A DNA stretch of 64,000 nucleotides. It comes from Chiridota heheva. Lineage: Eukaryota > Echinodermata > Holothuroidea > Apodida > Chiridotidae. The stretch is taken from positions 425,001 through 489,000 of the forward strand of contig JAIGNY010004484.1 of assembly GCA_020152595.1 (NCBI GenBank), in the 5' to 3' direction. A program made the position numbers and the translations under genes. Below are positions 4,312 to 51,890 of this stretch, piece after piece. The stretch's first letter is position 1; each line of letters opens with the position of its first letter. The notes beneath the pieces are model-generated. The model searched no databases and had not been told where the DNA came from. It saw only the letters and a program-made list of their open reading frames with translations.

Positions 4312-4522
4312 AGGCTTATCGCGTGGTTGTTGCGGACCGGATGGTCCCTCACTTCAGTGTTCCCGGGCGTACCGACTACCCCTCTGGTGCCTTGGTCCGC
4401 CTGGTCAGCGGTCAAAATGCCACCGCTGACCAGGCGGACCAAGGCACTCGAGGGGTAGTCGGTACGCCCGGGAACACTGAAGTGAGGGATCATCCGGTCC
4501 GCAACAACCACGCGATAAGCCT
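4312..4522. repeat. Giant near-perfect palindrome, 101-nt arms with 9-nt loop
   Basis: The left arm (4312-4412) and right arm (4422-4522) are reverse complements with about three mismatches, separated by the loop CAAAATGCC. The arms are clearly GC-richer than the surrounding AT-rich sequence and include a CCCGGGCGTACC block. As a single strand this would fold into one 101-bp hairpin. Because of the symmetry, both strands carry almost the same open reading frame (about 4296-4598), which is a by-product of the palindrome and not evidence of a gene. It lies between the end of a LINE and the promoter region of a Polinton-type polymerase. It could be a fold-back element, a hairpin end of a linear parvovirus-like or transposon genome, or an inverted duplication formed during repair. 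Confidence 0.9.
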
Positions 4523-8000: not shown

Positions 8001-8866
8001 AGTTAAGATTTCAGAAGTCAGAGATACACCCAATGTCATAAATGTCGTCGAAATGTGGGAGTGCCAGTGGAATGAGTACAGAAGGGCAAACCCTGAAGTC
8101 ATGCATTGGCTAGAAGAGAATCCGGTTGTGACACCTCTGAAGCCAAGAGAAGCCTTTTTTTGGGGTAGAACAAATGCATGTGCCTTAAAATATGATTGTA
8201 GTGATTACGAAAAGATAAGATACGTTGACTTTTGTTCTTTGTACCCCTGGGGAAATAAATTTGGTATTTCCCAGTGGGGCATCCTATTGTGTACCGTAAT
8301 ATAAGTGTTAGAGAATGTATGGAAGGTAATTATTTTGGTTTGATAAAGTGTAAAGTGCTCCCACCTTCAGACCTTTTCTTTCCGGTATTACTGCAAAAAA
8401 TAAACGACAAACTAATGTTTTTCCTTTGTAGAACCTGTGCTAAATCACAGAGCACAGCTTGTGATCATACCGAAAAGGAAAGGTCTTTGGTGGGCACCTG
8501 GGCCCACCTAGAGCTAAACAAGGCTGTAGAGAAAGGGAACCAAATCTTACATGTGTATGAATTTTTTTATTTTGCAACTCATTCAGACAAATTATTTGTG
8601 CCGTATGTGAAAGCCATGCAAAAAATGAAAGTTGATGGCCTTCACATGTTAAGTCTGTGAAAGATAGACTGAATTTCATTAATGAATATGCAACTAGAGA
8701 AGGGGTTGATTTAGATGCTGAAAGTATCATGCCTAATCCTGGTAAGAGGTCCCTTGCGAAACTAATGTTGAATAGTTTCTGGGGGAAATTTGGGCAGCGG
8801 GATAATTTGCCCCACACCGACTTTGTTACAAAGACAGCCAATTTGTTTAATTTAATGTGTGATTAA
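5058..8866 (+). pseudogene. Polinton/Maverick-type protein-primed DNA polymerase B, truncated and frameshifted
   Basis: A family-B, protein-primed DNA polymerase that would replicate a linear Polinton/Maverick genome. In order: a start at 5058; a frameshift at an A-run near 5220; an acidic then Lys-rich segment (5240-5400); a low-complexity Asn/Ser linker; a 5712-7532 block with an OTU-like pair (PEGNCL near 6135, NHYNLI near 6463); a Cys/His-rich region (6530-6860) with several CxxC pairs; ExoI FFDFESYI (about 6915); ExoII RSHDGAFIL (about 7170); a KGFFPYLFN motif (about 7375); an ExoIII-like YEYCKSDVLIL (7549); palm motif A DFCSLYPWGNK (about 8228); and motif B KRSLAKLMLNSFWGKFGQ (about 8744). 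Frames change at about 5220, 5560, 7530, 8275 and 8655. Coding similarity stops at 8866 before motif C, so roughly the last 200 residues are missing. It is clearly divergent from the PolB fragment at 48.5 kb. Confidence 0.9.
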
Positions 8867-9320
8867 ACAAAAAATATTTTTTGTATTGTTCACATTCTCT
8901 GACGGTTGATATTCATTGCGTCTCATTGCGTCATATTGTGTTACTTATTCCTTTACCCTCCGCTATTTTTTTTTTTATATTTTTTTTTGTGAATGGAAGG
9001 AGGCAAGGTACGTCTGTGTATTTTGCGCATTCCTTTCATTGGTAATCTTCTTAATTGATTGTTTTGACTATATTAGCTAGCTTTTGCTAATTTTTCGCTT
9101 AGTTGTATTTTTATCGATTTATTTTTCTTTCATTCAATTATCACTCTATGAAGTCGCAGAATACACAGATGTGCTTTTCTCATTATTTTCAATTGATTGT
9201 ATTGTTCATTATATCATTATCTGCTCTTACTTATGTTAAAAAGTAATAAAATATTAGTTATTATTCATTATGTGAGGTTTCTTTTACAAATGTATGAATT
9301 TTTATTGTTGTTGTTGAAGA
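8867..9320. other. Noncoding AT-rich stretch after truncated PolB
   Basis: T-rich sequence with no recognisable reading frame. The missing polymerase motif C is not found in any frame here, so PolB ends at an insertion, deletion or recombination point near 8866. Confidence 0.5.
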
Positions 9321-36790: not shown

Positions 36791-37032
36791 TCATGGTTGA
36801 GAATCATTCTGACATTATTTTAAATCAAGAAAAAGACCTTGCAAGAAATTTTTAAGTACTGACAGATTAAAATGAAATATAAATATTTTATTTAAGCTAA
36901 GTTTGTGGTGTATAACTATAACGTATTTCTTGAATGAAAGCACTTCAGGGCTTCTTCAATTATTATATACGACATTCAAGGGATAACACTCAAGTTATAT
37001 TGTGCCACTTAACACACAATAATAAACCAGGG

Positions 37033-37247
37033 GGAATACTGGCTCCTGATTGGTCACTACCTGTATAGGTTCCCCGTGATTTTACCACACGACCGAAGGG
37101 CGTCACATCTTTTGGAGGGAAAACAATAAACACAAACACATTGTCATAATTCAATTTTCTCTTTCTTATATTTGTGGTGGCTCTTATAAGAGCCTTTGGG
37201 TTCTTTTATCGATCGGCCGATCGATCTGCTACTGTCCTCCTTCCGGT
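37033..37247 (+). repeat. Left terminal inverted repeat
   Basis: Reverse complement of 51592-51808 with scattered differences. From outside in: GGAATACTGGCTCCTGATTG, a CACGACC block, CTCCAAAAG-complement, the histone-type 3' element, the 14-bp palindrome CGATCGGCCGATCG, and the last codons of the 119-aa gene. Beyond 37033 the two ends differ. Confidence 0.9.
37159..37194 (-). terminator. Histone-type mRNA 3' end signal (left repeat)
   Basis: On the - strand: AAAGGCTCTTATAAGAGCC followed by ACCAC, a 6-bp stem with loop TATA at 37194-37179. AAGAAAGAG follows 11 nt downstream at 37167-37159. Replication-dependent histone mRNAs end with such a stem-loop, cleaved about 5 nt after it and guided by U7 snRNA pairing to a purine-rich element. 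The loop keeps U at positions 1 and 3. The stop codon of the 119-aa gene lies about 12 nt before the stem. Confidence 0.85.
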
Positions 37248-37565
37248 GGTGCCCTGTTGTCCTTCCCCGACGGCTCCCCTGGTAGCTTTCTTTGATTCTG
37301 CAGAAGTTTCGTGTTCTTTTGCTATGTTGAAAGCAGCAACATGGAAGGCCCATATGCCGCCCCAGCAGTGTGACACGTCTTGGTAAGCATGGACGATGGC
37401 TGCCGTAATTACATCGCCTTCTGCAGGATGAAACCCGTCTTTGAATGGTGTTAAACAGTTGCATCTGTTTTCGAGGTGTTCTATAACTTTATCGTAGTCG
37501 ATAGGTCCAGGGCTCCATTTCCTCAAGAGTTCAAACATTACTTTGGCTAAGACTTCCCACTCCAT
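37206..37565 (-). CDS. 119-aa protein of unknown function, outermost left-arm gene
   Basis: ATG at 37565, TAA at 37206. I do not recognise the family. The N-terminal half is ordinary globular sequence with Trp, His and Cys residues (SHCWGGIWAFHVAAFNIAKE). The C-terminal third is polar and Arg/Gly/Thr-rich and overlaps the terminal inverted repeat. The leader just upstream (TTTCTTTTCATTCTGAGTTT) closely matches the leader of the 156-aa gene on the other arm, and both end in the same histone-type 3' signal, so the two genes likely shared regulation. Its own promoter now lies 4.5 kb away at 42.1-42.2 kb because a LINE inserted in the leader. Confidence 0.7.
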   Translation of the reverse strand: MEWEVLAKVMFELLRKWSPGPIDYDKVIEHLENRCNCLTPFKDGFHPAEGDVITAAIVHAYQDVSHCWGGIWAFHVAAFNIAKEHETSAESKKATRGAVGEGQQGTTGRRTVADRSADR

Positions 37566-38060
37566 GATGATGATGTGTTCGCTCTGAAACTCAGAATGAA
37601 AAGAAATTGTGTAATTTGATATCTCGAAAAAGATGTCATTCTTGGGAATGGCGATGTGGCTAACAGCCTTATATCGCCTGCTTGTCCTTGAGTTGTTGCT
37701 AAAGAAAGCGATGAGTGGAAAACTAGACTGAGATGAAAAGTAAACTGGAAAAGTAGATGGCTGTAGAGTGAATGTCGGTGCTATTGCTCAGAGTAAAATG
37801 AAGGGTTAGGTTACGATGTGTGGAGGCTTAATTGAGACTATGTTCGTGGATGGCTCTTTTCAGTTGAATAGTTAGTTAAGCTGGTTTCTTGCAATTTGTC
37901 CTAGTGGGGTGTTGATTCGGTTGTTTGGTATCAGTAGGTCGTCTTCAGTAAAAAGTGATTTTAGATGGTTGATATTTGTGGCTTTGTCCATGTACTTGTT
38001 GTGTAATGTATTCATTCTATCGTGTATAGTATCTAGATTCGTTTGTTGGTGTAGTAGTTT

Positions 38061-40605
38061 TTATGAAATGTATCGTGGAAGTCCAGTTGAGATTCTAATT
38101 GCTTGGTTCTGTATTCTTTGTAGTTTTAGTAGATTTGTCCTTCCAGTGTTGATAAATGCTATGGAGCCGTATTCGAGAATTGGACGTATGAAAGTTTGGT
38201 AGGTACATAAGGCTGTGTGATTCGAGATGCCCCAATCCTTTCCTTTGATGATGCTAATTAGGTGAAGTCTTTGTTTCGCTTTGCTAATGATATTGTTGAT
38301 GTGAGGGGTCCATGAAAGTCTTTTGTCAATTGTAAGTCCCAGGAATGGGGCTGTCGTTGGCTGGTTTGTCGGCACGTTGTCAATTGTCAGTCGGAAGGGT
38401 TTGATGATGGAACCAGTTCTTCTTGAAATATTTAACGTGTTACTTTTACTAGGGTTGAGTTTGATTTTCCATTGGTGACACCAATTGCTGATTTGGTCGA
38501 GAGCTTCTTGTGAATATTTTGCTGCTAAGTGAGTGCGAAGGCTTGAAGACCAGAGTGCTATGTCATCAGCGAATTGTGTAGTAGTGCATTTTGGGTGTTG
38601 AGGGAGATCCGCGACATATAATATGAAAATAATCGGTGAAATGGTCGATCCCGGTAAACCTGCAGTTGGTGAAAATGGTTGAGAACTGGAATTATTAATT
38701 TTGATGGTGTTGGTTCTGTTTTGGAGGAAGTTGAAAAGCCATCTGATGTAAGTAGCTGGAATGTTGAGTTGCAAAAGTTTGTAGATGATACCCTGGTGCC
38801 ATACACTGTCAAATGCCTTTTCAATGTCTAAGAAAGTGATGATGGTTTGTTGTTTGAAGTTGATTGCTTTGCTAATAGATTGTGAAAGTAATAGTAAATG
38901 GTCGTTGGTGGATCTAATTTTACGAAAACCTGCTTGTAAGTCTGGGATAAGTTGGTTGGTTTCGTGAAAGTAGAAATGCGAGTGGAGATTAAGCGTCGAG
39001 AAGTTTCCCTATGGTATTTAATAAGCTGATTGACGGAAATTTTTGGATTTGAGTGATCTTTTCCTGGTTTCGGGATCATGGTAATAGAAGCTGTTTTCCA
39101 GTGAATAGGCAGAAATCCAAGTTGAAGGGACGAGTTGAACAGAATAACTAAGAGACGAATTGCTTTGGGGGTTGCTTTTTTGAGAGAGATATTCGGTCCA
39201 CACCTGGAGAATTATTCTTTAGTTTCTTGATTGCTTGAATGATTTCGTCGTTAGTAATGGGGTCTTGCGAAAGTTCGTTCGATAAGGGATGGTGGTGGTG
39301 AAGATAGGTCTGTTCAGCAATAAAGTCGTGTACGGTGGTGTTAAAGGTCTGGTTTTCGTGCGGTTTATCAGTTTGTGTCTCTTGTAGAGTGTCCTTAAGG
39401 ATGTTACATTTATCGCTGGTCGTTCGGTATTTAGTGTTGTTAACTGTAATCGTAGGGATGGTGGAGCGTTTCTTTTGACCAGTAATCGTTTTGAAGTTTT
39501 TCCAGAAGGTTTTGATGTCTTTTTGTTGCTCTAGAGAATTACAAAGTGTTTCCCATCGGTATTGTTTTAAGGACTTGATTGAATCTTTGATTTTGAGTTT
39601 CAGGTGTTGTGCTTGGGTCTTGAATCGATGCTGGTGAGTCCGTTGAAAAAGCTTGATGAGAATCCTTTTTTATTTATCATTTTCGATATGTTGTCTGGAA
39701 GGGTAAAGTTGTCCTTGTTGATTTGAAGGTTCTAGTGGGGTTGAAAATAAGATTGCTGTTTGAATGCTTTGATGATTATGCTATTAAGCTTGGTGATTTC
39801 TTGTGTATTTTTGGGTGCAAGGATTTGGTTCGGTATCTGTTCGTCGAGAGTTTTTGTGAAAATGTGCCAGTCAGTTTTAGCGAAATTAAATGTAATCGAC
39901 GGTGAAATTGGGGAGTTAACGTGGTGATTACTTGTTGAAAGATCTAGGTGAAGGGTAAGTGATCACTGCCAATGTCTTCACCGATGAAGTAATGGTCGAT
40001 GAGTTCAATAATAGTCGGGTTGTAAAGATTTTGTCGGGAGATGTTGATGTAGTAGAGATTCTGGTAGGCTGTCCGTCAGATATGAGGGTAAGATTATACT
40101 TAATGGCTAATTTGTTGAGGGCTATGCCTGCTGTGTTGGAAGTTTTGTCTCCTAGATTTTTGTGGTGAGCATTAAAGTCTCCGAGGATGATGGTAGGTTT
40201 CTTGTAGTTGAGAAGTTGTTCGAGTTGGCTAATATCTAGTTTTAATTTAGGGGGGCTATAGACAGTAATAATGATGATGTCAGTGTTTTTGATGGTGACA
40301 GTAATTGCGAGGAGTTCCGTTGCAGAGTTTGAAGTAGTAGGAATCAGGACTGGAAGAAGATGGTCCTTTGTTAAAATAACGACGCCTCCGGCTGCTTTAG
40401 AAATTTGATGTTGACGGTCTTTGCGAAAGGTGGTGAAGTTGTTTAATTGAAAGTGTTTTTCAGCGGTAAGATGGGTTTCCGTAATTGCTATGAGATCTAT
40501 GTCATTATTGTTTGAGTAGTTGAGTAGTTCCTCTTTATTGTTGATAAGTCCATTTACATTGATGTGCATTAGTTTAGTCTGAGAAGATTGAGGGATCTGG
40601 TTCAC
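38061..40605 (-). pseudogene. Jockey-like ORF2: AP endonuclease and reverse transcriptase, frameshifted
   Basis: Begins at 40605, overlapping the end of ORF1 by 32 nt. Endonuclease: MHINVNGL, ITETHL (about 40490), GGVVILTKDHL, TVYSPPKL and the catalytic GDFNAHHKN (about 40180). Frame breaks follow between 39.93 and 39.2 kb. The RT is read in overlapping frames to 38061, with fingers and palm pieces, GLPGSTISPIIFILYVADLP, the active-site FADDIALWSS (about 38560), LNPSKSNTLNIS, PFLGLTIDKRLSWTPHI and LKLQRIQNQAIRISTGLP. The FADD box and the LGLTID/RIQNQA blocks are Jockey-clade features. Several frameshifts mean it is no longer active. Confidence 0.88.
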
Positions 40606-42019
40606 TTTCTGCTTTTGTTAGATCAACTGAGATTTTCCTTTTTGTGAAGTGGTCGATGAATTTGTTTCTTGTTTTGTTGTTGCGCATGATGTTTAGAATT
40701 TCTTTAATTTGATCCTTCTTTGATGTGATTCGTGATTCTTCGCTTAGGAGGATGGAAGAAGTAATTTGGTAAGCATTATCGTAGATATCAGAGCCAATCA
40801 GATGTAGTTTCTTTAAGTCTTTTAAAGAGTTAGCTTCCAGTGGGAGAGGATCTGTTTGAGTGCTGATCTCTCTGGTTTCAGTGGTGGTAGACTTCGTGGA
40901 AAATTGCTTTGGTTGATTGCTTTGTTGTATTTGATTTGTCGACACTTGATAATTAGGCAGATTGTTTAATCTAGCCTTTACTGTTGCTGCGTATGACTGT
41001 CTAGTCGGGCAAGCAGTCGAAAAAGACGGATGGGATCCATTACAATTGGCGCAAGTCGGAGTTTCTCTTGAAGTGCTGCAATCTTTAACAAGATGGTTTC
41101 CTCCACAACGGAGGCAGGTGACTTCTGATTTGCAGGATTTTGCTAGATGGCCATATTTTTGGCATTTGAAGCATTGGATGATGTTTGGTTGTTGATGCGA
41201 TTCTTCGACCTGATAGTGGAAGTAAGTAAACATTGTGATACCTCTAGTCAGTAAGTGATCTGCTTGTGTTTCGTTTTTTAGGCTAACTCTGATTAGTCTC
41301 GTTGGCTTGTTGAATTGCTTAGATTGGATGCGATTGATTTTGTTGACTTCGATGTTTTGGTTAGTTAGTTCTGTTTCAATATCTTTGATAGGTATTGCTA
41401 CACTGACGCCTTTGATTACGATGGTTTTAGACTGAGGTTGTTTCGTTGCCGTTTTGTAAACCATTGGAAGGTGAACATTAAAGCTACCTTCAAATGATGT
41501 TTCGTCCCAATCTTGCATCATGTAGTTAAAATCCCGTATGGATTTTGTTTGGATTGCTAGGCCCCCTCTTTGAAGTAGTTTCATCCTGAAATCCTTAATG
41601 TTAGGCTTAACTCTTTGAATTTCTTTCATGGCTGATAGCTCGTTTTGAAATTTAGTACCGATTCCATCTATGATTATTGCAATCGGATCTTTAGGTGCTG
41701 CTTTGGTTGCTGTAAGAATATTCCTTTGTGGCGGAGTTTCGTAGTCCATGTTAGTTGCTGTTGTAGTACTTCCTCTTTCACTGATACTTGAAAGCTTTGG
41801 TGTTTTCGGTAAAGCTGCTGGTGAAGGTTGATCAGAGTTATCGGCAATTGGTGAGAGATGACGGTGAGTTTTAGGTGCTGGCTTGTCTGAAGTTGTAGAT
41901 TGAGTTTTTTTTTTCCTTCTGTTGGTGACTTCGCTGAAATCGTTCTCTCTTTCAACAATATTTGTGATGCCTGCCATGTCAAGGGCATCCAAAAAGGAGA
42001 GATTTAAACTGTCCTCCAT
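40574..42019 (-). CDS. Jockey-like ORF1, gag-like protein with zinc knuckles
   Basis: An intact 481-codon frame starting at 42019. It is Ser/Thr/Pro-rich for the first 130 residues. An RRM-like middle follows (TIVIKGVSVAIPIKDIETEL; LIRVSLKNE). Then come gag-type zinc knuckles: CFKCQKYGHLAKSC, CLRCGGNHLVKDC and a third CANCNGSHPSFSTAC at about residues 290-345. The C-terminus is Lys-rich. It would package the LINE RNA. Three CCHC-type knuckles are typical of Jockey and I clade ORF1 proteins. That this frame is whole while ORF2 is broken suggests a moderately young insertion. Confidence 0.9.
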   Translation of the reverse strand: MEDSLNLSFLDALDMAGITNIVERENDFSEVTNRRKKKTQSTTSDKPAPKTHRHLSPIADNSDQPSPAALPKTPKLSSISERGSTTTATNMDYETPPQRNILTATKAAPKDPIAIIIDGIGTKFQNELSAMKEIQRVKPNIKDFRMKLLQRGGLAIQTKSIRDFNYMMQDWDETSFEGSFNVHLPMVYKTATKQPQSKTIVIKGVSVAIPIKDIETELTNQNIEVNKINRIQSKQFNKPTRLIRVSLKNETQADHLLTRGITMFTYFHYQVEESHQQPNIIQCFKCQKYGHLAKSCKSEVTCLRCGGNHLVKDCSTSRETPTCANCNGSHPSFSTACPTRQSYAATVKARLNNLPNYQVSTNQIQQSNQPKQFSTKSTTTETREISTQTDPLPLEANSLKDLKKLHLIGSDIYDNAYQITSSILLSEESRITSKKDQIKEILNIMRNNKTRNKFIDHFTKRKISVDLTKAESEPDPSIFSD

Positions 42020-42122
42020 CCGAAGATGGCGTGGCTGAAAGATGTAGCCAAATTAAGTTTGTTGTCCTTGTATAGCGTAGATAATCTGCAAACTGGTTAG
42101 GAAAAGAAAGGATTAAGTTTGC

Positions 42123-42203
42123 TCTATTTATGCTTTTTGGTTCCATCTCTTCGACCAATCAGAAGCCAGAAAGTTATGACGCCATTTGAGTTGGTGGCGC
42201 TCT
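42123..42203 (-). promoter_or_regulatory. Viral promoter for the 119-aa gene, now isolated by the LINE
   Basis: On the - strand: AGAGCGCCACCA (42203-42192), ATTGGTCGAAGAGAT with an inverted CCAAT box (about 42160-42150) and GCATAAATAGAGCAAACTT with TATA (about 42132-42120). The same three boxes with the same spacing and nearly the same sequence occur before the 156-aa gene at 51018-51099. The TATA lies about 20 bp before the LINE insertion point. Confidence 0.8.
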
Positions 42204-42340
42204 TTTGAAAACAAAGCCAGAAAAGCATAATGCCATTTTTTTGGTGGAGCTCTTTTGAAAAAATAAATAATTAAAAAAATTAAAACAAAGCCAAAAAGCA
42301 TAATGCCATTTTTTTCTTTGGTGGAGTTCTTTTGAAGAAA
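42165..42340 (-). repeat. Three diverged ~60-bp tandem units upstream of the promoter
   Basis: Each has a (A/G)CCA(G)AAA...CATAATGCCATTTTT or GACGCCATTTGAG core and ends in GGTGGAGCTCTTTTGAA or GGTGGCGCTCTTTTGAA. They look like duplications of the upstream AGAGCGCCACCA box region. The two outer copies are decayed (GAGCTCC). Confidence 0.75.
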
Positions 42341-42723
42341 AAAATACTATTAAGATAAATAAATAATATATTTAAAAAAAGTAATTAAATAAAAAAAGAA
42401 TGATAAAAAAAATTACTTAAGATTATCACCTTAGATTGTGAAAGTCACCTTGACAGTCACTCTTATACGTTGGAATCATGCCAAGTCACCTTTAAACAGT
42501 ATGTGTGGATATAGCGTCACCTTCTGTGAAAGTCACCTTGAAAGTCAAATAATAAAAATAAATTAATTTGAAAAAATCAAACGATAAAACATAGGCGTTA
42601 TAAACGATAAATATTACAAACGATAAGCGTTACAAACAATTATGGCCAATACAAACGATAAATATTACACACGATAAACAATTACGGACAGTACAAACGA
42701 TACAAACGTTACAAAGAATGTCT
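42341..42723. other. AT-rich spacer of the left arm
   Basis: Poly-A/T-rich sequence, then short repeated words: AAAGTCACCTTGA-like (about 42445-42545) and ACGATAAATATTACA or ACAAACGATAA-like (about 42590-42710). No coding. Confidence 0.5.
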
Positions 42724-43221
42724 TTAATCCTTTTTCTCTTTCTTATACTTGTGGTGGCTCTGAAAAGAGCCTTTTTGGTTTTGTTTTGACGTAGGACAGT
42801 TGACTTTACTTCGACGTAGGGCAGAAGGGGCACAGGGGCACAGCTCACAGTTTTCTGTCTGTGTTGTCACAGATCTGGCCTCCTCCACAACCTCTTCTGC
42901 CTTTGTTTTCTTGTCCTCCTCCTCCAGTGCAGGCGGCCACTCGTCGGCCACGAGGAAGTCCTCATCGGCGACAGCCAGCACCCTTGCCCATTCTCCGTTG
43001 GTGAGGACTAGTTCCTCGTCCTCGTCCTCCATGTCTCTTTCGATTGTTGATACGCTAAAAGGAGGCTCGTCATCCTCGTCCCAATCGCTACCGGTTGCGG
43101 AGCTCGGAGAGCTGGGCGTATAGAGCGTCTCGTCGGAGTCCAATGGCTCCTCGCGGCGTAGCCACATCTCTTTGTCTTTCATATAGACTTCCACCGGTAA
43201 GTAAGCGTATAAATTAGCCAT
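42724..43221 (-). CDS. Acidic 165-codon protein, unknown function; frame runs through a histone-type 3' signal
   Basis: ATG at 43221 (MANLYAYLPVEVYMKDKEMW). The middle is very acidic (SDWDEDDEPP; DMEDEDEELVL), with a WPPALEEEDKK segment and a Cys-rich NCELCPCAP near the end. Family unknown. A promoter with TATA and CCAAT boxes precedes it. The reading frame stays open through the stem-loop and its downstream element, ending at 42724, after the expected mRNA cleavage point. An in-frame stop before the stem exists only in another frame (near 42795). Either a frameshift has occurred or the ending was unusual. Confidence 0.6.
   Translation of the reverse strand: MANLYAYLPVEVYMKDKEMWLRREEPLDSDETLYTPSSPSSATGSDWDEDDEPPFSVSTIERDMEDEDEELVLTNGEWARVLAVADEDFLVADEWPPALEEEDKKTKAEEVVEEARSVTTQTENCELCPCAPSALRRSKVNCPTSKQNQKGSFQSHHKYKKEKKD
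42736..42771 (-). terminator. Histone-type mRNA 3' end signal (acidic gene), canonical
   Basis: On the - strand: AAAAAGGCTCTTTTCAGAGC then C and ACCAC, the exact consensus histone stem-loop with loop TTTC (42771-42756). AAGAAAGAG follows 11 nt downstream at 42744-42736. This copy lies outside the terminal repeats and differs from them in loop and flank sequence, so it is not simply a copy of the repeat end. It strongly supports real use of the signal by this element family. Confidence 0.9.
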
Positions 43222-43275
43222 GATGCTGCTGATTGTAAATTTAACAGATCGAATGATTGAAAATGCCGCCAACGG

Positions 43276-43470
43276 CTCTTTTATTCTGTCTCTTGATAAT
43301 ACTTACCATGCCAGCGATTGGCTGACTGGGTACGTGGCTGTATACTTACCCCCAATTGGTTCATATCACGCCTGCCCGTAGAAACTTGTCTGGCTCACGC
43401 CTACGTCATCACGTCTGACTAACCACGATCCCGATTGGTTCGTATCGCGATTGCTGTGGCCGTTTACTTG
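43276..43470 (-). promoter_or_regulatory. Promoter of the acidic gene with three CCAAT boxes
   Basis: On the - strand: AATAAAAGAG TATA-like box (43286-43277), 55 bp before the ATG. Upstream are AGCCAATCGC (about 43323-43314), GAACCAATTGGG (about 43370) and GAACCAATCGGG (about 43445). The two distal boxes lie in diverged ~85-bp repeats sharing CGTGAGCCAGACAAGT. CCAAT-box arrays plus TATA also typify replication-dependent histone promoters; that link is inference. Confidence 0.6.
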
Positions 43471-43515: not shown

Positions 43516-43682
43516 GAACTTCTACGGTAGCCTCTACGGTAGCCTCTACGGAACTCTTTTTGAACGTCATTAAATTCATTTCCCTCTTTTTTGAATATTT
43601 ATATGCGAGGGTAAAGTACCTGCCCCAACCAACACAGTGGTACCGTAGGAGTCATGCCACGATTATGTACTCCTTCCGCTCA
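43516..43682 (-). repeat. Inner inverted repeat, left copy
   Basis: Inverted match to 50823-50983. Shared blocks are GCGGAAGGAGTACA, CGTGGCATGACTCCTACGGT, TTGGTTGGGGCAGGTACTTT, ACCCTCG and repeated CTACCGTAGA words. It lies just after the 3' end of the left-arm gene block, as its partner does on the right arm. Confidence 0.85.
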
Positions 43683-43752: not shown

Positions 43753-44649
43753 TCATGCAGAGGATTCTTCTTCTTTGGGTTCCTCGATGATGATGGGTGG
43801 TATGTCCAGTTTTAAATCTACCTTGCGTCTTTTCGACAAGGTGGGAGGTGGCGACGACGACGGTGAACGGGGTCTTTTCTTTGCTTTTGAATGTTGTGCT
43901 ATGGTATCCTCGAACATCTGTTCGCACAATTCGTCCATGTCGTTGGCATTTTTCGCCATGAAGGGCACTTTGACCAATGCTTTCAAATGTTCTATTGCAA
44001 ATAGCCCTTCTGTGCTCGCCAGTTTGCACCATTGGTCCAGGTTGAGAGAAATCCCTTTTTCTCCGGGTACGACAGTCCATTGACGGGTGGTGTGTCCGTG
44101 AGGGTCGCTGATGGTTTGCATTGCGTAGTCGTAATGGCGTATGTCCATGAGAATGCTTTCGCCTTCTGCGGTCAGACAGATGTAAATCTGTTTTCCCAGA
44201 AGCAAACGTAACTTTTCGGGGTGTGACGGCCCGCTCATGTGATTGGCTCCGTTGACGTTAGACGTATGGTAGTGCAAGGCCATTTCGGATACCATGTTTT
44301 TGTTCTTGCAGAGTTCATCCCAAACGCCTTCTTCCATGGCGATGCCTTGAGCCGTGACTCTCGGTATTGTACAGGGGTTGGTTTTGGCATACTTGCCGAG
44401 ATGTACATATTTGATGCTTTCAAACTGCGATGTAGACACGTACACGTTCTCTCCTACGGGATAAGCTCGGGTCACCAATCCTCGACTGTCTCTTACTTTG
44501 TCGAAACTCTGCATTTTCAAAGCTCTCTTCAACGGTATGTTGTCGGGACCCGAAGGCGGTGGTGAAAAGCGCATTTCTCCCGTGTGTTTGTTGTGGTAAT
44601 ATACGTTACCGTTCCTCTCGTTTACTTTATTCCAACCGGTTTGAGCCAT
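43753..44649 (-). CDS. WW-like plus two PC4-like domains, viral nucleic-acid-binding protein
   Basis: ATG at 44649 (MAQTGWNK); an apparent longer frame begins with a non-ATG codon inside the TATA region and is not preferred. Residues 5-32 resemble a WW domain (GWNKVNERNGNVYYHNKHTG) with the second Trp replaced by Phe before PP. Two PC4-like ssDNA-binding domains follow: VYVSTSQFESIKYVHLGKYA...GIAMEEGVWDELC and QIYICLT...LMDIRHYDYA...KGISLNLDQWCKL. The tail has a bipartite-NLS-like KAKKRPRSPSSS and KRRKV, then an acidic end. PC4 proteins bind ssDNA and act in transcription or replication. I infer a viral ssDNA-binding or late-transcription factor. A TATA (GTTATAAAAG) precedes it. Confidence 0.7.
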   Translation of the reverse strand: MAQTGWNKVNERNGNVYYHNKHTGEMRFSPPPSGPDNIPLKRALKMQSFDKVRDSRGLVTRAYPVGENVYVSTSQFESIKYVHLGKYAKTNPCTIPRVTAQGIAMEEGVWDELCKNKNMVSEMALHYHTSNVNGANHMSGPSHPEKLRLLLGKQIYICLTAEGESILMDIRHYDYAMQTISDPHGHTTRQWTVVPGEKGISLNLDQWCKLASTEGLFAIEHLKALVKVPFMAKNANDMDELCEQMFEDTIAQHSKAKKRPRSPSSSPPPTLSKRRKVDLKLDIPPIIIEEPKEEESSA

Positions 44650-44705
44650 GATGATTTGTCTTTCTCGAAGAGTTGTGAAAGAATGGTGGGTGTTTTTGAA
44701 TTCGA

Positions 44706-44738
44706 ACACTTTTATAACGTTTTTCAGAAGAGGGCGCT
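44706..44738 (-). promoter_or_regulatory. TATA and GCGCCCTC box of the WW/PC4 gene
   Basis: On the - strand, AGCGCCCTCT (44738-44729) is followed by CGTTATAAAAG (44719-44709), about 60 bp before the ATG at 44649. It overlaps the 3' end of the upstream PC4 gene. Confidence 0.55.
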
Positions 44739-45354
44739 AGTCAATTATCGTCGGATGACATCCTGCTTCATTCCAAGATATGTTTTTTGAGGTGTTACAC
44801 ATATCCTCAGAGGTCACGTGTTTCATCGCTTTTCTGGTCTTTACGTCTTCTTCTTCTTCGTCTTTCAAAATACATACTTGACGAAAGCTCTCGGGACGTG
44901 CCAAAATCAGCCATTGTTCGGATGTGAGAGCGATACCTTTCTTGGTAGGTACTTCACCGATAGAAGGAACGTTGCTGTACTTTCTGATATGTACGTAGAG
45001 ATTGTCTTTGAACGATGAGATCGTGACATAGGTATGCTGTCCGAGCACCACTTTTAGCTTTTCTCCAGAATGGATGCGATGGGTACTGTCCTTTAATTTC
45101 TTGAGTGTGTCCGTTACCAGACGAGCTCGACGAGTTATCACGGCCCATTGCTCGAGTGTGAGGGCGATGCCTTTCTTGGTCGCCAAGGGTGTCGTTCCGA
45201 CATCAGGGTGTATAAAATACTGCCGTACGTGAACGTAAAACTTTCCGTTGAAGCAAGAGACGGTGAGGTAGCGTTCGCATCCTAAAGCGACAGCTTTCTT
45301 GTCTTGTGTGCCGGCACGGACGTCGGTTAATCCTTGGGTAGTGATTGCTTCCAT
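44737..45354 (-). CDS. Tandem PC4-like ssDNA-binding protein (205 aa)
   Basis: ATG at 45354. Two clear PC4-type repeats: residues about 25-75 (CERYLTVSCFNGKFYVHVRQ ... KKGIALTLEQWAVI) and about 105-155 (HTYVTISSFKDNLYVHIRKY ... KKGIALTSEQWLIL). Each has the strand-strand-strand then KGIaLt.eQW helix order of the PC4/p15 C-terminal fold. An acidic DEEEEDV and a polar tail follow. It is clearly paralogous to the next gene downstream, so the family duplicated inside this lineage. Likely role: coating ssDNA during protein-primed replication or activating late transcription; inferred. Own TATA at about 45400. Confidence 0.75.
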   Translation of the reverse strand: MEAITTQGLTDVRAGTQDKKAVALGCERYLTVSCFNGKFYVHVRQYFIHPDVGTTPLATKKGIALTLEQWAVITRRARLVTDTLKKLKDSTHRIHSGEKLKVVLGQHTYVTISSFKDNLYVHIRKYSNVPSIGEVPTKKGIALTSEQWLILARPESFRQVCILKDEEEEDVKTRKAMKHVTSEDMCNTSKNISWNEAGCHPTIID

Positions 45355-45595: not shown

Positions 45596-46042
45596 TTAAC
45601 CGTAATGTTGAAGTACAAATGTAAACACATCCTCATCGTTGCGTTCCTTGTCTTTCCCAAAACGAGCCGTGATGCCGTCCATGTCTGCGCCTCGTGCCCT
45701 ATGAACCAGATAATAAATACAATAATGACCGCACACGCTAGAGGTAGGACTCTGAAGCGGTTTGTGGTTGTAAACAAATGGTTTATTTTTCAAGAAACGT
45801 CGAATGAAAGAAACGTCGGGGGGTTCGCCGTAGGAGTCAAAATATTCCCAAGGACCGACCTCGGGTATGTAAATAGCGACCCAATGCCGGCCCGGTTTCC
45901 AACTCGGATCCGTGTTGATCACCATGACACTCGGACGTTCCGATGGTAAATGTAACTGATCTGCAGCATGAACGCCGTCGCACACGAGCCATCGCGTGTA
46001 AGCGTCTTTGTCCAACACTCGAACAATATCGGACGTCTCCAT
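45596..46042 (-). CDS. Adenain-type cysteine protease (Polinton PRO), 148 aa
   Basis: ATG at 46042, TAA at 45596; intact frame of usual length for a short Polinton protease. The catalytic set is visible: His53 in GRHWVAIYIP, Asp69 in EYFDSYG, Gln97 in KPLQSPTSS and Cys104 in VCGHYCIYYL. This His-Asp-Gln-Cys arrangement is that of the adenovirus maturation protease family (Ulp1/C5-like), which cleaves capsid precursors during particle maturation. It begins 4 bp after the capsid gene stop, so the two may have shared a transcript. It is the best-preserved gene of the element. Confidence 0.9.
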   Translation of the reverse strand: METSDIVRVLDKDAYTRWLVCDGVHAADQLHLPSERPSVMVINTDPSWKPGRHWVAIYIPEVGPWEYFDSYGEPPDVSFIRRFLKNKPFVYNHKPLQSPTSSVCGHYCIYYLVHRARGADMDGITARFGKDKERNDEDVFTFVLQHYG

Positions 46043-46046
46043 GATT

Positions 46047-46967
46047 TCAATTGGTAAAGTCGTAGATGATGCTGCGGTTTTTATCTATTTCGATGATGTT
46101 GTCGAATTCGGCGTAGATGAGAAGGTTGGTGGTGGAAGTCAATGCCTCTGCAAATTTGAAATCCACACGAAGATTTCCTCGTTTGTTGACCGTGTAGTGT
46201 TGTCCGTGGGATCCGCCAGATGTCAGATCAAAAACAAACAGCGTGTAACCGTCCAGAAAATCCGTCGGAGTGATGTCCATGCCCCCATCGCCGTATAAAC
46301 GACCCGTGGCAGAATACATTTGAAGGTAACTGCGGAGAGCTAGACTTGATTCAAAGTTGGGAATGAGCGCCGTGGAAGGATACTGTTTCTCATCGACATG
46401 AAGCGCGAGATAATTCAGTTTGAAAGATTGGAAACGAAACGGATTCTTCTTGTAAGCGCCGTTGAAAGAGGCCGTGTCCACAAAGCAAACCACGATCCTC
46501 TTTGGTAACTCGCCCAGAAATACATTGTCTCGTTGAAAATCTTGGGTTCCGGTCGGTATTGTGATATTTCGGATGATGGTGCGTCGGATCTTGTACTTGG
46601 CCGGTTCTCTGTTGAGGGTGACGAGGTCGCTGAGCACATGGGTGTCGCTACACGCCAGTTTACGCACGTAGAGAATGGCGCCCAAGATAATCACACGAAA
46701 GTCGGCATCTGCAACTTTCGACGTCAAACAAAAAGAGTCCTTACTGCCGTTGCAGTTTGAGTCGTACTTCCACACCGGTAGAAGCACGTTGTTTTGAGCA
46801 AATATGTCGGAGTGTAGGGGTCCCATCATCTCGAACACTTTGCTGCTTTTTGTTTTAATGAAACGTTCTTTAAGTCCCCAGTTGCTCATGCCAGCAATGG
46901 TAGTCAAATCACTGAAGTCCATATGGCCTGCCGTATCTTTGAAATAGAACTGAGACTGTAGATGTGT
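46047..46967 (-). pseudogene. Polinton major capsid protein (double jelly-roll), N-terminally truncated
   Basis: The frame is open from about 46967 to the stop at 46047 (about 306 codons). It matches the C-terminal half to two thirds of the Polinton/adintovirus hexon-like capsid protein, often labelled F54H12.2-like in databases. Recognisable blocks: FYFKDTAGHMD (about 46950), GLKERFIKTKSS, GPLHSDIFAQNNVLLP, FRVIILGAILYVRKL, TASFNGAYKKNPFRFQSFKL, YSATGRLYGDGGMDI, GYTLFVFDLT and LLIYAEFDNIIEID. About 150 N-terminal residues are gone: upstream of about 46970 the sequence is a dispersed repeat. The ATG at 46922 is internal, not the true start. Confidence 0.88.
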
Positions 46968-48540
46968 TAGCTCAAGAATGGCTGAAATAGCCTGAATTAT
47001 CTGTGATGGGGGTATCTTAAAGGATTAGTGCAGGGGTCAAATAAGTTCATCCATGGAGCTATTAACCGAAAGTCCATCTTACACGAAAGAGGACTTTAAA
47101 AGAAATTTATGAAATCTTTTAGTTATATTTTGTTATAATGAATGCCACTTGAAAGTGTATTTGTGGGATGCTTTTATTTATTAATTCAGATTAATCAATT
47201 GCTATAATTAATCATTTTCTCATAATGGCTAATATATTAGCAATATGAGGAAAATATCAGTGGCGCCGGCAAGGGGGCATGGGGGGCTTTTGCCCCAAAT
47301 CCCCAAAATGTCAAAAATTCAAATGATTTTGGTGTATATTTGATATGATTTTTAAGCAATTTTCTGCCTCCTCAACAACAACAACAATTTAGAGCTTCCC
47401 CCACCAGGGCCTTTAAGAGGCCCCTGGACCCTACGCCGTTCTGGCACAAGCCTCGAGTGTGCAACATTTTGATTTAGGCCACTAATAAATTTGTTCCGGC
47501 GGCGCCACTGGAAAATATGCCATAGTTGAAATCATGTCTTGTTGCAAGGGCGTAAAATCCATCTTGATTTTATACAACAGTATTTTGCTGTTGTCTGTTT
47601 ATGATTTCAATTTCCCTCAAAAGCAAACATTATCATTATCATTTTAATAAAATTTGCATCATATTGCTGTTGAGGCTTGTGTTTTTAAGGCCTACTTGGA
47701 AAACAGTTTTCACATATTCAAACGATATTAAAGCTCCAATACGCAGTGGGGCAACTAGAGTCCTGGGGGCCGTGGGGATTTGGGCCTCTGCAGCAATGTC
47801 GGAACCACGGTGGCAAGGGTGAGGGGGGGGGGACTGCACTTGGCCATAGAGTAGCCTAAGGGGAAACAAGGTGCCCTTTTGAAATTGTGCGGACGGGAAC
47901 AGTAGGTACCTTTTTTTAAATTAAGGGCGGACTGTGCAGTAGGCGCTCTTTTGGGACTTTTATGAAAAATATTCGTATAGGTCATTTTTGAAGCTAGAAA
48001 ACAAATAGAAATCCACTCACTCACAAATACTACATGGTTGTTACATAGACTTAATATTTATTTGACGCAAATAAAGCATGTCATTTTACCAGGGGCACCA
48101 ACACCGAGGGACGTGGTGGGAGGGGGCATGCTCCAATAATATTCTAAGGAGTAATTTTTAAATGAAGCCTTTTACCTATTCGGCCGATGGGTAATTGTTA
48201 ACAGTGGTCCTGGCTCCCCAATCTCAAATCCATAAGCGGAATTTGCCTACCGAAAGTGGGGGAAAGTCAAAAGTGTGTGTGCGTGTGTGTGCGTGTGTGT
48301 GCGTGTGTGTGGGGGGAATCACAAAACCACACTAATATACATCCCATCACCATACAAAAGTACCCATTTGGACAAAACGTGAGGGTGGGGAAGTGCCTTC
48401 TTGCTCCCCCCCAAAATCCCGCCTATGTCAAACCATATGTGTAGGAACCATGGGGTAGGGGGCACGTTTCCTCCATAATTTCGAAAACTGACAAGAGTTC
48501 CCCTTTTATAAATGAAAAGTGCTTCTCAATTACATGCGAA
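46968..48540. other. Non-viral filler between capsid and polymerase fragments
   Basis: Starts with a dispersed repeat (about 46975-47130, inverted relative to copies at 21236-21330 and 63880-63990). It contains a hAT MITE and a (GTGTGTGC)n microsatellite at 48273-48312. No viral coding can be seen, so it replaces the missing capsid and PolB N-termini and whatever lay between them. Confidence 0.7.
47258..47510. mobile_element. hAT-type MITE, 253 bp
   Basis: Ends are CAGTGGCGCCG and its reverse complement CGGCGCCACTG. The flanks are a perfect 8-bp target duplication GAAAATAT (47250-47257 and 47511-47518). Eight-base duplications and CAG(T)GGCG-type ends are typical of hAT transposons. It has no coding capacity. 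Confidence 0.9.
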
Positions 48541-49403
48541 ACCGAAGAACAGCGTCGTCGGTACATCGACGAGTATGAGGCCCGAGAAGGGATCAGACTG
48601 GACTACCTCAGCATCGCCAAGAACGAGGGAAAGCGATCCTTGGCTAAACTGATGCTCAACTGCTTTTGGGGAAAGTTTGGACAGCGAAGTGCACTCACCA
48701 AGACGGAATTTATCAACACTCTTGAAAAATTCTACAAGCTATTGACGGACAAATCGAAACAAGTGAAATACGTGCAGTTTCACGACAAGTTCACCGCCCG
48801 CATCCAATGGGTCGACATGAACGAATCACGCCAAGTATCGCCTAACACGAACATTTTCAACGCGGCTTACACCACGGCTCACGCCCGTCTCAAACTCTAC
48901 AGTTACATCGAGTGACTGGATGAGCGCGTCCTCTACCGACACGGATTCCGTGATTTACGCCAGCCGACCGGGAACCTACGATCCACCCCTCGCAACTTTC
49001 TTGGCGACATGACAGACGAGCTGGAGAAGCCTTACGGTGCCGGAGCTACATCACCGAGTTTGTTTCTGGAGGCCCAAAGAACTACGCTTACAAAGCACGT
49101 TCGACCAGAGCAGACGCCGCCGCCGTGGGGGAGTGCAAAGTCAGAGGCATCACTTTGGACCACAACACCATTCTATCGGTCAACTTCAAGGCGATGATCA
49201 ACATGGTAAATCACGTAGATCCTGGAACAGGCCGAGCCTGGGAAGACGATGAAGAACTCATCGTTCCTGTCCATTATCCTCACAGCATCAGGAGAGACGG
49301 TCCCGGAAGAGTTCTCACCAGATCCATTACCAAGGATTACAGACTGATCTACGACAAACGCGTCATCCAAGCAGATCTTTCAACCCTCCCGTACGGTTAT
49401 TGA
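48541..49403 (+). pseudogene. Protein-primed DNA polymerase B, C-terminal part, frameshifted
   Basis: Starts inside the palm: YIDEYEAREGIRLDYL, motif B KRSLAKLMLNCFWGKFGQRS (about 48630-48690), then NTNIFNAAYTTAHARLKLYS (about 48845-48905). A TGA at 48914 interrupts just before motif C. Motif C (DTDSVIY) is present near 48940 but in a different frame, and further shifts occur near 49000 and 49090. The last segment, from about 49125, continues as CKVRGITLDHNTI to the TGA at 49401. Everything before motif B (exonuclease, motif A and N-terminal domain) is missing. It replicated the linear element in working relatives. Sequence differs strongly from PolB at 5-8.9 kb. Confidence 0.88.
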
Positions 49404-49450: not shown

Positions 49451-49482
49451 GGTGGATGTGAGTTGAGTCGATTCATTTAATC

Positions 49483-49846
49483 ATGGGTATTCTAAACGAG
49501 GAAGAGACATTTGTGTGGGAACGCTTGTGGTGGCCTATGCTTGCAAAAAGTCTACGTAAAAATATCACAGAGTACGGAAATGTCACTATCCGCGTGCTGA
49601 AACTGAATATAGAGAAAAGTACATGGATCCCTTGTATTTCGTCTCGATGAAGGGTCGTATGAATTGCGACAGTTTTTACAAAACTTCAGTTGTAGATTGT
49701 ACAGAGACGATGAAGTACACGACTTCATGCCACACCCTTTTCATATCTGGCTGGAAAGAAACAACGTAACAATCCGTATTGAATATACGGTCGTCGAAAA
49801 CAGATCTTCAAGCCGTATACGATCACACACCAAACTTTTCGTGTAG
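49483..49846 (+). pseudogene. Small viral gene, frameshifted, unknown function
   Basis: ATG at 49483 starts MGILNEEETFVWERLWWPML, which stops at a TGA near 49651. An overlapping frame continues to 49846 (LQNFSCRLYRDDEVHDFMPH; HIWLERNNVTIRIEYTVVEN). The two parts together would be about 120 codons. No family recognised. It has its own promoter and is followed after 9 bp by the next promoter, so the right arm is a series of compact single-gene units. Confidence 0.55.
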
Positions 49847-49854
49847 ATACAGAA

Positions 49855-49912
49855 AGAGCGCCACCATTAACAATGCTGCTTTGCTCTCATTGGTCAGAAA
49901 CAACATGAAAAG
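49855..49912 (+). promoter_or_regulatory. Promoter of the 49958 gene
   Basis: AGAGCGCCACCA (49855-49866), ATTGGTCAGAAA (49889-49900) and a weak TATA-like ACATGAAAAGG (about 49902-49912). Third occurrence of the shared module. Confidence 0.7.
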
Positions 49913-49957
49913 GCAAGCCTCGCTGAAGCTCGATTCATTATTCTATTAGACACCAAC

Positions 49958-50705
49958 ATGGACACCACACATAACAGTACGAGTTCAGGGCAGAAACGTA
50001 AAGCAGCGTCGAAACACACACAGGCATCAAAGAAACCACGCGCGTCGAAACACACACAGGCATCAAAGAAACCACGCAACGAGACCTTCAACGTAGTAAA
50101 AAGGACTCCTTCGCAAATCATCAAGGCAGAGATCAGGCGTGTGGTGTGCGACGACTCTTGCGATCCTGACATATACGGAGAACATACCGGCGAAGGAGAC
50201 TTCACATTACCATTCTACAATACATTGGGTTGTCTCACCGCGTTTATGGCCCCACTAGGATATGGCATGGAGGAAGAAGAAGAAGTACTTGAACATTTGT
50301 TGAAAGAGGCAAAGAAACACATGGGTATGGAGGAGGATCATACAAACATTCTGCAGACCGAAACGGCATCAGCCGTCAAGCAGACAGAAGAAGACTCTCT
50401 TGTTTAAAGAGAAAAAGAACTGGCCAAAATTCCTGAAAGCGATGACGGAGATAGCACACGACTTGCTGAAAACCCAATCGACACAAGCTGCATCGGTCAA
50501 CGACCTGATCGAGAAGGTCGAAGAAAAGAAAGGCAAAGTAAAAGAGATTCAGCGCCCGCTGGTTACAGATCCACTCACGAAAGACATTTTCAAAGAGCTG
50601 GAAAAGGAAATGAAGGAAGAGGTTAGCAAAGACTTCGGAGAAGAGAAGCTACTCTGTTTGTTGAGAGACGTCATCCATGCAACGCTGGGAGGCTACGCTG
50701 ATTGA
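49958..50705 (+). pseudogene. Lys/Arg-rich then acidic, coiled-coil viral protein; one frameshift
   Basis: ATG at 49958. Residues 12-45 contain a tandem 12-residue repeat (ASKHTQASKKPR twice, encoded by a 36-bp duplication), which looks like a nuclear-localisation or DNA-binding tail. The middle has VVCDDSCDPDIYGEHTGEGD. The first frame stops at 50407, while an overlapping frame beginning at a non-ATG codon at 50400 continues to TGA at 50705 (FKEKKNWPKFLKAMTEIAHD ... LTKDIFKELEKEMKEEV). I read this as one gene of about 248 codons broken by a one-base change near 50400. Function unknown; strong helical content. Confidence 0.6.
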
Positions 50706-51017
50706 TTGAGCAATCTCGGTCTCAAATGCAAAGTGATGGACTGTCTGTGGGACTTGATTATTGAGGAAGAATGTTAAAACATTGTATTTGTTTGAAGAAA
50801 AAAAAGAAAAAGAAAAAAATGAGGGCGGAAGGAGTACAAAATCGTGGCATGACTCCTACGGTATCACTGCGTTGGTTGGGGCAGGTACTTTACCCTCGTA
50901 TGTAAATATTTAAAAAAGAGAAAAATGAATTTAAAGACGTTCGAAAAGAGTTCGAGGCTACCGTAGAGACTACCGTAGAAGTTTTGACCTAACTCATCAT
51001 ACCTTTCTTTTTTCAAA
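50706..51017 (+). other. Right-arm spacer with inner inverted repeat
   Basis: An A/G-rich tract (50795-50820) is followed by the inner inverted repeat at 50823-50983. No coding. Confidence 0.6.
50823..50983 (+). repeat. Inner inverted repeat, right copy
   Basis: Inverted partner of 43516-43682. It lies just upstream of the 156-aa gene's promoter, while the left copy lies upstream of the acidic gene's promoter. Confidence 0.85.
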
Positions 51018-51099
51018 AGAGCGCCACCAACTCGAATGGTATCATACCTTTCTGGCTTCTGATTGGTCGAAGAGATCTAAACAAAAAAGCATAAATAGA
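51018..51099 (+). promoter_or_regulatory. Promoter of the 156-aa gene
   Basis: AGAGCGCCACCA (51018-51029), GATTGGTCGAAGAGAT (inverted CCAAT, 51061-51076) and GCATAAATAGAGCAAACTTG (TATA, from 51089). Nearly identical to the isolated left-arm promoter at 42.12-42.20 kb. The ATG follows at 51143. Confidence 0.82.
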
Positions 51100-51142
51100 G
51101 CAAACTTGATCAATTCTTTTCATTCTGAGTTTTAGACACATC

Positions 51143-51613
51143 ATGCCTCGATACTTGCCATTATTGCCAATATCCACGGTTGTTTTCCCTAACGGGTTTA
51201 CAAGGAGAATGTTAACACAGGAGGGAGATCCCATCAGAGCTTACTACCGGTTCGGTTTGGCACACAAATTCGACAACAGAGTACACAAAACATCGGCCGT
51301 CAGAACACCGCCGAGATACCTACATCAAAGACCAGATCACCCTCAGAACTTTGCAATGAGAGAGAGTAAGTGGGGGAAAGCATGCTTCTCCAAGGCTCGT
51401 CTGTGTTATTACGCTTGCAGAACTCCAGCATATTATAGATTTCTCAACCACTACAAGGTTAAAGCCCAGAAAAGGAAAAGATACATGTCTAAGCCACCTT
51501 GGGTAAGAGGAATGTTCGTAGCCAACGTGATGAGGCATCGTGAAACGCATAGAGAAATGCTGAGGAGCAAAACAACCGATGGGCATCAGTGGACTACGGG
51601 AGGAGGACAGTAA
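51143..51613 (+). CDS. Basic 156-aa protein, outermost right-arm gene
   Basis: ATG at 51143, TAA at 51613. Strongly basic, with many Arg, Tyr and His residues: YRFGLAHKFDNRVHKTSAVR, SKARLCYYACRTPAYYRFLN, KVKAQKRKRYMSKPPW and RHRETHREMLRSKTTDG. Family unknown. A small Arg/Lys/Tyr-rich protein in a virus-like element could condense DNA in the particle, or be a terminal or minor capsid protein; these are guesses. Its end reaches into the terminal inverted repeat and the histone-type stem-loop starts 34 nt after the stop. The leader and promoter match those of the 119-aa gene, although the proteins are not alike outside the shared repeat. Confidence 0.7.
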   Translation: MPRYLPLLPISTVVFPNGFTRRMLTQEGDPIRAYYRFGLAHKFDNRVHKTSAVRTPPRYLHQRPDHPQNFAMRESKWGKACFSKARLCYYACRTPAYYRFLNHYKVKAQKRKRYMSKPPWVRGMFVANVMRHRETHREMLRSKTTDGHQWTTGGGQ

Positions 51614-51808
51614 CAGGTCGATCGGCCGATCGATAAAGAACCCAAAGGCTCTTATAAGAGCCACCACAAATATAAGAAAGAGAAAATTGAATCATGACAA
51701 TGTGTTTGTGTTTATTGTTTTCCCTCCAAAAGATTTGACGACCTTTGGTCGTGTGATAAAATCACGAGGAGCCTATCCAGGTAGTGAACAATCAGGAGCC
51801 AGTATTCC
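51592..51808 (-). repeat. Right terminal inverted repeat
   Basis: Inverted partner of 37033-37247. Contains the end of the 156-aa gene, the CGATCGGCCGATCG palindrome, the histone-type stem-loop and its downstream element, a CGACC/CACGA block and CAATCAGGAGCCAGTATTCC at the tip. Confidence 0.9.
51647..51682 (+). terminator. Histone-type mRNA 3' end signal (right repeat)
   Basis: AAAGGCTCTTATAAGAGCC with the stem at 51647-51662, then ACCAC, and AAGAAAGAG at 51674-51682. Mirror copy of the left-repeat signal. Confidence 0.85.
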
Positions 51809-51890
51809 ACCTCATTTGCATATTCTATGAATATTCATGAGAAATTAGGAATACTGGCTCCTGATTGGTCACTACCTGGATAGGCTCCTC
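51766..51890. repeat. 43-bp hairpin at the right tip of the element
   Basis: 51766-51808 (the end of the right repeat) and 51848-51890 are reverse complements with one mismatch, around a 39-nt AT-rich loop containing ATGAATATTCATGAG. The outer arm has the orientation of a left repeat tip. It may be the remnant of an adjacent copy or a fold-back end. The left end shows no such hairpin. Confidence 0.8.

Follow-up and report, generated by a model that had tools for sequence, protein, structure and literature searches.

Three histone-type 3′-end signals in a decayed Polinton-type element

In animals, a hairpin signal at the 3′ end is known for making histone messages that carry no poly(A) tail. 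The U7 snRNP cleaves the message 4-5 nt 3′ of the hairpin (PMC7026596), the hairpin of Hydractinia histone genes lies 6-17 nt past the stop codon (PMC5011920), and histone genes of C. elegans carry the hairpin together with a conserved AATAAA (PMC1924863). Among the viral elements of animals, Polintons carry a double-jelly-roll capsid protein, a protease, pPolB, an integrase and an ATPase (PMC4028283), and adintoviruses are defined by a PolB with an N-terminal OTU-like domain and by an integrase with a chromodomain (PMC11071296). Histone genes have also been described in viruses, bracovirus H4 and others (PMC9145170, PMC12819152). No report of histone-type 3′ ends in Polintons, adintoviruses or other viruses was present among the open-licence PMC matches listed. 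Four papers that combine "histone stem-loop" with virus terms were set aside after a check by term: two list an SLBP paper among their references, one had the hairpin on a reporter and one had it in an engineered mRNA. The terms stem-loop, SLBP and polyadenyl do not occur in a review of viral histones (PMC9145170), and "stem-loop" and "polyadenylation" are absent from the main text of a survey that covers adintoviruses (PMC11071296).

The locus described here lies in a 64-kb stretch of DNA, referred to at its full length as the window. In its hairpin, loop pattern, ACC flank and purine-rich downstream element it is like the 3′ end of replication-dependent histone mRNAs (RF00032 plus the U7 HDE), and the three genes that carry the hairpin are, like replication-dependent histone genes, short and apparently intronless, with a short distance between stop codon and hairpin in two of the three. 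Unlike those histone genes, they belong to a virus-like element and show no histone domain, and two of the signals are placed in terminal inverted repeats. The element itself shares with animal Polintons (Mavericks) and adintoviruses the terminal inverted repeats, the double-jelly-roll capsid protein, the adjoining adenain-type protease and a polymerase B remnant. It differs from them in having two PC4-domain genes and in that no match to an RVE integrase or an FtsK-type packaging ATPase was found among the 19 proteins scanned (18 from the window and one homologue, covering the reading frames in part); neither the OTU-like PolB domain nor the chromodomain integrase was found in this decayed copy. 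As with the viral histone genes (PMC9145170, PMC12819152), an animal-associated virus is linked to the histone system, but in those cases the viruses reportedly took the histone protein, whereas the element described here has the RNA 3′-end signal alone. Both the RNA signal and the kind of element are known; their combination has apparently not been described.

The element is best explained as an animal virus of Polinton type that became integrated and has since decayed, and the virus-like, Polinton-type setting proposed in the original prediction is borne out by the terminal inverted repeats, capsid, protease and polymerase B remnant (Table 1). The left and right repeats agree at 203 of 217 positions (94%, one gap; blastn), and between them we found genes for the capsid protein, the protease and two PC4-domain proteins, a decayed piece of DNA polymerase B and several small ORFs, other parts of the element having been lost or overwritten by other repeats. 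A search with the capsid ORF, which lacks the start present in its 440-aa homologues, gave 68 homologues at E≤1e-5. The top one is 77% identical along the whole ORF, and the close homologues P0001-P0012 show 55-81% identity over the covered part; those with names are oyster, nemertean and wasp proteins called "F54H12.2-like". A model of the top homologue, for which 26 of the 68 were used (pLDDT 84.5), matched the major capsid proteins of iridovirus, PBCV-1, Sputnik and mavirus in the PDB with TM values of about 0.5-0.6 (best match E 1.1e-15, TM 0.59). In a viral library, its top match was an uncharacterised protein of Cotesia sesamiae Mombasa bracovirus (35% identity, E 4.8e-34, TM 0.39), a hint that a record of a wasp bracovirus contains a related capsid gene; proteins of adomavirus, MELD-virus and virophage came next, and an adintovirus protein annotated as "penton" was also listed. 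The protease matches cysteine protease S273R (E 2.3e-4), and a protease follows the capsid gene in three of five distant relatives as well (L001, L003 and L004; ~40-42% identity). From the setting we infer that the polymerase B was of the protein-primed kind. The two adjacent PC4 genes (43753-45354, minus strand) are 26% identical to each other, one of them with a weak WW match; the term PC4 is absent from two Polinton/adintovirus papers in which it was searched (PMC11071296, PMC4028283).

Table 1. Positions in the window of the element, its genes and its histone-type signals (ORF, open reading frame as it reads at present).
Feature	Position	Strand	Basis or remark
Left terminal inverted repeat, 217 nt	37029..37245	.	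blastn of ends; holds one histone signal
Histone 3′-end signal, left terminal repeat	37199-37153	-	Rfam RF00032, 37.5 bits
Purine-rich element AAGAAAGAG, putative U7-pairing HDE	37159..37167	-	11 nt past stem
Histone-type hairpin GGCTCTTATAAGAGCC	37179..37194	-	11 nt past stop codon of 119-aa gene
119-aa ORF, faces left end	37206..37565	-	No family assigned; upstream region split by LINE
Acidic 165-aa ORF (40 D+E, 20 K+R)	42724..43221	-	Reads through hairpin in present form
Histone 3′-end signal, the reported one	42776-42731	-	Rfam RF00032, 37.9 bits
Purine-rich element AAGAAAGAG, putative HDE	42736..42744	-	11 nt past stem
Histone-type hairpin GGCTCTTTTCAGAGCC, the reported one	42756..42771	-	Rfam RF00032
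TATA-like AATAAAAG (43285) and TCATTC (43256)	43251..43285	-	Upstream of acidic gene
PC4-domain gene (PC4/WW)	43753..44649	-	PF02229 E 1.6e-8; AATAAA 62 nt past stop; no histone hairpin
Double-PC4 gene	44737..45354	-	PF02229 E 3.8e-24, two stretches
Adenain-type cysteine protease	45596..46042	-	PF00770 E 0.006, below cutoff; directly 3′ of capsid gene
Double-jelly-roll major capsid protein (F54H12.2-like), C-terminal two-thirds	46047..46922	-	Homologues and homologue model
Viral-type DNA polymerase B piece, decayed	48445..48915	+	PF03175 E 2.5e-7
159-nt element	50825..50983	+	Upstream of right-end gene
TATA-like ATAAATA (51091) and TCATTC (51120)	51091..51125	+	Upstream of right-end gene
Basic 156-aa ORF (31 K+R, 8 D+E), faces right end	51143..51613	+	ORF listing
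Right terminal inverted repeat	51597..51812	.	blastn of ends; holds one histone signal
Histone 3′-end signal, right terminal repeat	51642-51688	+	Rfam RF00032, 37.5 bits
Histone-type hairpin GGCTCTTATAAGAGCC	51647..51662	+	33 nt past stop codon of 156-aa ORF
Purine-rich element AAGAAAGAG, putative HDE	51674..51682	+	11 nt past stem

Several other repeats were observed in and around the element. Insertion of a non-LTR retrotransposon at ~37800-42130, with a zinc-knuckle ORF and endonuclease- and reverse transcriptase-like frames, has separated the TCATTC of the left-end gene from its TATA-like region. A second, separate Polinton-type polymerase B remnant lies at 5212-8878 on the plus strand (PF03175 in two ORFs); the polymerase piece at 48445 matches its segment 8624-8878 at 46%, and the Rfam scan found no histone hairpin near this remnant. 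At 51848-51889, 35 nt beyond the right repeat, a 42-nt inverted copy of the tip of that repeat makes a long hairpin, which could represent joined ends of elements or a piece of some other copy; the permissive Rfam scan also gave a weak miRNA-like match at 51771-51885. Far to the left, positions 4312-4522 form a near-perfect fold-back with 101-nt arms (97% complementary) and a 9-nt loop, perhaps a MITE.

Covariance search of the window against all 4227 Rfam families gave three matches to RF00032 (Histone3) above its gathering score of 34. They were the sole gathering-level matches to any family in the 64 kb, and a permissive scan added no further histone match. The signal originally reported has an E value of 1.7e-7 in this search, and its letters and coordinates proved correct: GGCTCTTTTCAGAGCC at 42771-42756 on the minus strand, with AAAAA on its 5′ side, ACCACAAGTAT (11 nt) on its 3′ side, and then AAGAAAGAG at 42744-42736. 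The other two, which add to the one noted before, both lie in the terminal inverted repeats. The flanked hairpin pattern occurs three times in the window and not once in 300 dinucleotide shuffles, and the pattern of hairpin plus AAGAAAG, which bears the HDE, likewise three times against none in 300; the bare hairpin pattern was counted five times because both terminal 16-mers are palindromic and match on either strand. All three RNAs are predicted to fold into the same hairpin, with a 6-bp stem and a 4-nt loop (z -3.55 to -4.09; -3.55 for the reported RNA, 42776-42731, minus strand). The reported signal is not a product of chance in the window, and the claim that it is canonical is supported.

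Each of the three signals reads GGCTCT, 4 nt, AGAGCC, followed by ACCACAA(A/G)TAT (11 nt) and then by AAGAAAGAG, which lies exactly 11 nt past the stem in every case. The stem, U1 and U3 of the loop, the ACC flank and the 11-nt spacing of the HDE are identical in all three. What matters to SLBP includes the stem and a U in the first and third positions of the loop, and these are kept here. The likeness between internal and terminal copies is confined to the functional length of the signal: in ungapped comparison they agree at 14 of 16 positions of the hairpin and at 24 of 27 of the next stretch, and in larger flanking windows at 8/45 to 19/47, with gapped alignment giving the same picture and more scattered matches. 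Within the first 40 nt, the copies differ at loop positions 2 and 4 and at a single base of the spacer. As the terminal repeats are 94% alike, the two terminal signals were counted as one event. The idea that the internal signal is the remnant of an old terminal repeat was rejected, given how little similarity there is beyond the signal. The terminal hairpin 16-mers are perfect DNA palindromes, and the internal copy is not palindromic. A second palindrome was observed in the terminal repeats (37208-37225, 18 nt; 51618-51633, 16 nt), 13 nt upstream of the histone hairpin; the window has a single copy of the 18-mer, which is absent at the internal signal.

All three signals are on the coding strand, at or past the end of a gene. 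The distance from stop codon to hairpin is 11 nt for the left-end gene, inside the Hydractinia range of 6-17 nt (PMC5011920), and 33 nt for the right-end gene, outside it. The original prediction had placed its signal directly at the end of the acidic gene; this is right as to the coding strand, but the 165-aa ORF of today overlaps the hairpin. The stop of this ORF begins 45 nt past the first base of the hairpin, and no in-frame stop was found in it ahead of the expected cleavage site. Since the stop lies beyond the place of U7 cleavage, processing of the present copy would yield an mRNA without a stop codon. The simplest view of the overlap is decay, in the course of which the frame of the once active element would have changed. 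That the frame stays open across the signal might also point to a coding role. Neither the acidic 165-aa protein nor the basic 156-aa protein has a homologue at E≤0.001, and a single-sequence structure model of the latter was unusable (pLDDT 44.8). The 119-aa ORF has no Pfam or PHROG match at E≤0.1, and none of the proteins of the three hairpin genes gave a Pfam match at E≤0.1, to a histone fold or to any other family. The prediction had also allowed for a captured fragment of a host histone gene; Pfam found no histone domain in the ten proteins scanned, and ungapped similarity drops where the signal ends.

Pairs of hairpin genes have upstream DNA in common. The 159-nt element ahead of the right-end gene has a 163-nt copy (91%) at ~43517-43679 on the minus strand, upstream of the acidic gene, and the TATA region of the right-end gene (51010-51101) is 91% identical over 92 nt to 42211-42121 on the minus strand, upstream of the left-end gene. 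A TATA box with YCATTC was rejected as a hallmark of the hairpin genes, as the PC4/WW gene also has this arrangement. YCATTCR is the cap motif of sea urchin histone genes; a search of papers for it in that role found nothing. A 14-mer, AAAGAGCGCCACCA, recurs upstream of three small genes (42121-42720, 49470-49957 and 50700-51142), with degenerate extra copies ahead of the left-end gene, and is possibly a shared regulatory site. As for poly(A) signals, no AATAAA occurs within 300 nt downstream of the stops of the three hairpin genes, and neither AATAAA nor ATTAAA within 300 nt past the stops of the left-end and right-end genes; at the acidic gene, an ATTAAA begins 43 nt past the first base of the hairpin and overlaps the stop. 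Among six ends of non-hairpin genes, one has an AATAAA in its own 3′ flank (the PC4/WW gene, 62 nt past the stop), the double-PC4 and capsid genes have it only within the following gene, and the protease gene and the ORFs ending at 50407 and 50705 have none, so that the contrast between hairpin and non-hairpin genes is weak, most of the latter likewise being without an AATAAA of their own.

These observations make it likely, in our view, that the three short viral genes used SLBP/U7 processing and gave rise to non-polyadenylated, S-phase-linked mRNAs; we infer the use of SLBP and U7, the absence of poly(A) and the coupling to S phase from the signal alone. In this proposal, the acidic gene and the two terminus-facing genes would have ended in the 3′ processing signal of replication-dependent histone genes. 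Host SLBP would bind the hairpin, AAGAAAGAG would base-pair with the U7 snRNP of the host, and the RNA would be cut 4-5 nt past the hairpin, leaving capped viral mRNAs without poly(A) tails. The stability and translation of these mRNAs would follow SLBP, and hence S phase, and tail-less mRNAs would be on hand during viral DNA replication. For the two terminal genes, the signal would in addition stop the transcript no more than 150 nt from where the terminal repeat ends, in a stretch without AATAAA. Whether there is an animal Polinton lineage with a dedicated class of tail-less, SLBP-dependent, S-phase-timed genes, situated next to a PC4 gene and at the ends of the genome, is in our judgment an evenly balanced question.

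The signals could instead be passengers, a host histone 3′ end that was picked up by transduction or recombination, spread to a second place in the element and was unused for processing. Their closeness to the metazoan consensus would fit such an origin, as would the decayed state of the copy, in which the acidic ORF now overlaps its signal. However, the ten proteins scanned contain no histone domain, and the internal and terminal flanks are so dissimilar that a longer captured histone piece is not seen. Furthermore, over the first 40 nt the copies differ in loop and spacer and keep the stem and AAGAAAGAG, and the signals sit at gene ends on the coding strand, all of which makes a mere relic unlikely. 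A different possibility is that the hairpin was used and the mRNAs were also, or finally, polyadenylated farther on, for which the ATTAAA 43 nt past the first base of the acidic-gene hairpin might serve; the histone genes of C. elegans, with both signals, offer a comparison (PMC1924863). The purine-rich HDE in all three signals argues against this arrangement, and so does the lack of AATAAA or ATTAAA within 300 nt past the stops of the other two genes, a lack shared by some non-hairpin genes; we regard such a mixed 3′ end as quite improbable.

The motif might also act as DNA, as a palindrome of the terminal repeats, or as coding sequence for the C-terminal tail of the acidic protein. The internal copy is no palindrome, although the terminal 16-mers are perfect ones with a second palindrome 13 nt upstream. 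The acidic ORF does encode the signal as its tail, and translation of either terminal copy can give a near-identical peptide (12 of 14 residues; left ORF 37144-37464, minus strand); however, two of the three differences in the first 40 nt alter the peptide and leave the RNA consensus intact, and the signal lies past the stop in the two terminal genes. Neither role accounts for the ACC flank and the HDE, and we consider both together very improbable.

We also searched for the signal in relatives of the element. In IMG/VR, the strict hairpin with its flanks had no match. Three matches to the hairpin plus AAGAAAG lie directly past phage tmRNA and were read as terminators (one was inspected base by base), and the one match to the relaxed hairpin is antisense within a phage-type gene, so that the three motif patterns gave no convincing instance in this database. 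Relatives were not found in IMG/VR either, by the capsid protein, a capsid profile of 26 rows drawn from the 68 homologues, the double-PC4 protein or a full Polinton polymerase. Five distant capsid-bearing loci were found in bacterial MAG assemblies, where they are presumably animal DNA contamination. They gave no Histone3 match up to E 2, and hairpin genes and PC4 genes were absent from them by tblastn; because these loci are without the genes in question, the missing signal neither supports nor refutes the proposed processing.

Together, the results suggest that a decayed virus-like element finished some of its messages in the way its host finishes histone messages. The signal is short and specific enough for all animal genomes to be scanned for it. 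If the proposal is true, some viral transcripts would be missed by poly(A)-selected RNA-seq, and the rule that replication-dependent histone mRNAs are the sole tail-less mRNAs of animals would have an exception. The signal would then be built into viral terminal repeats, and the expression of Polintons would be tied to the S phase of the host.
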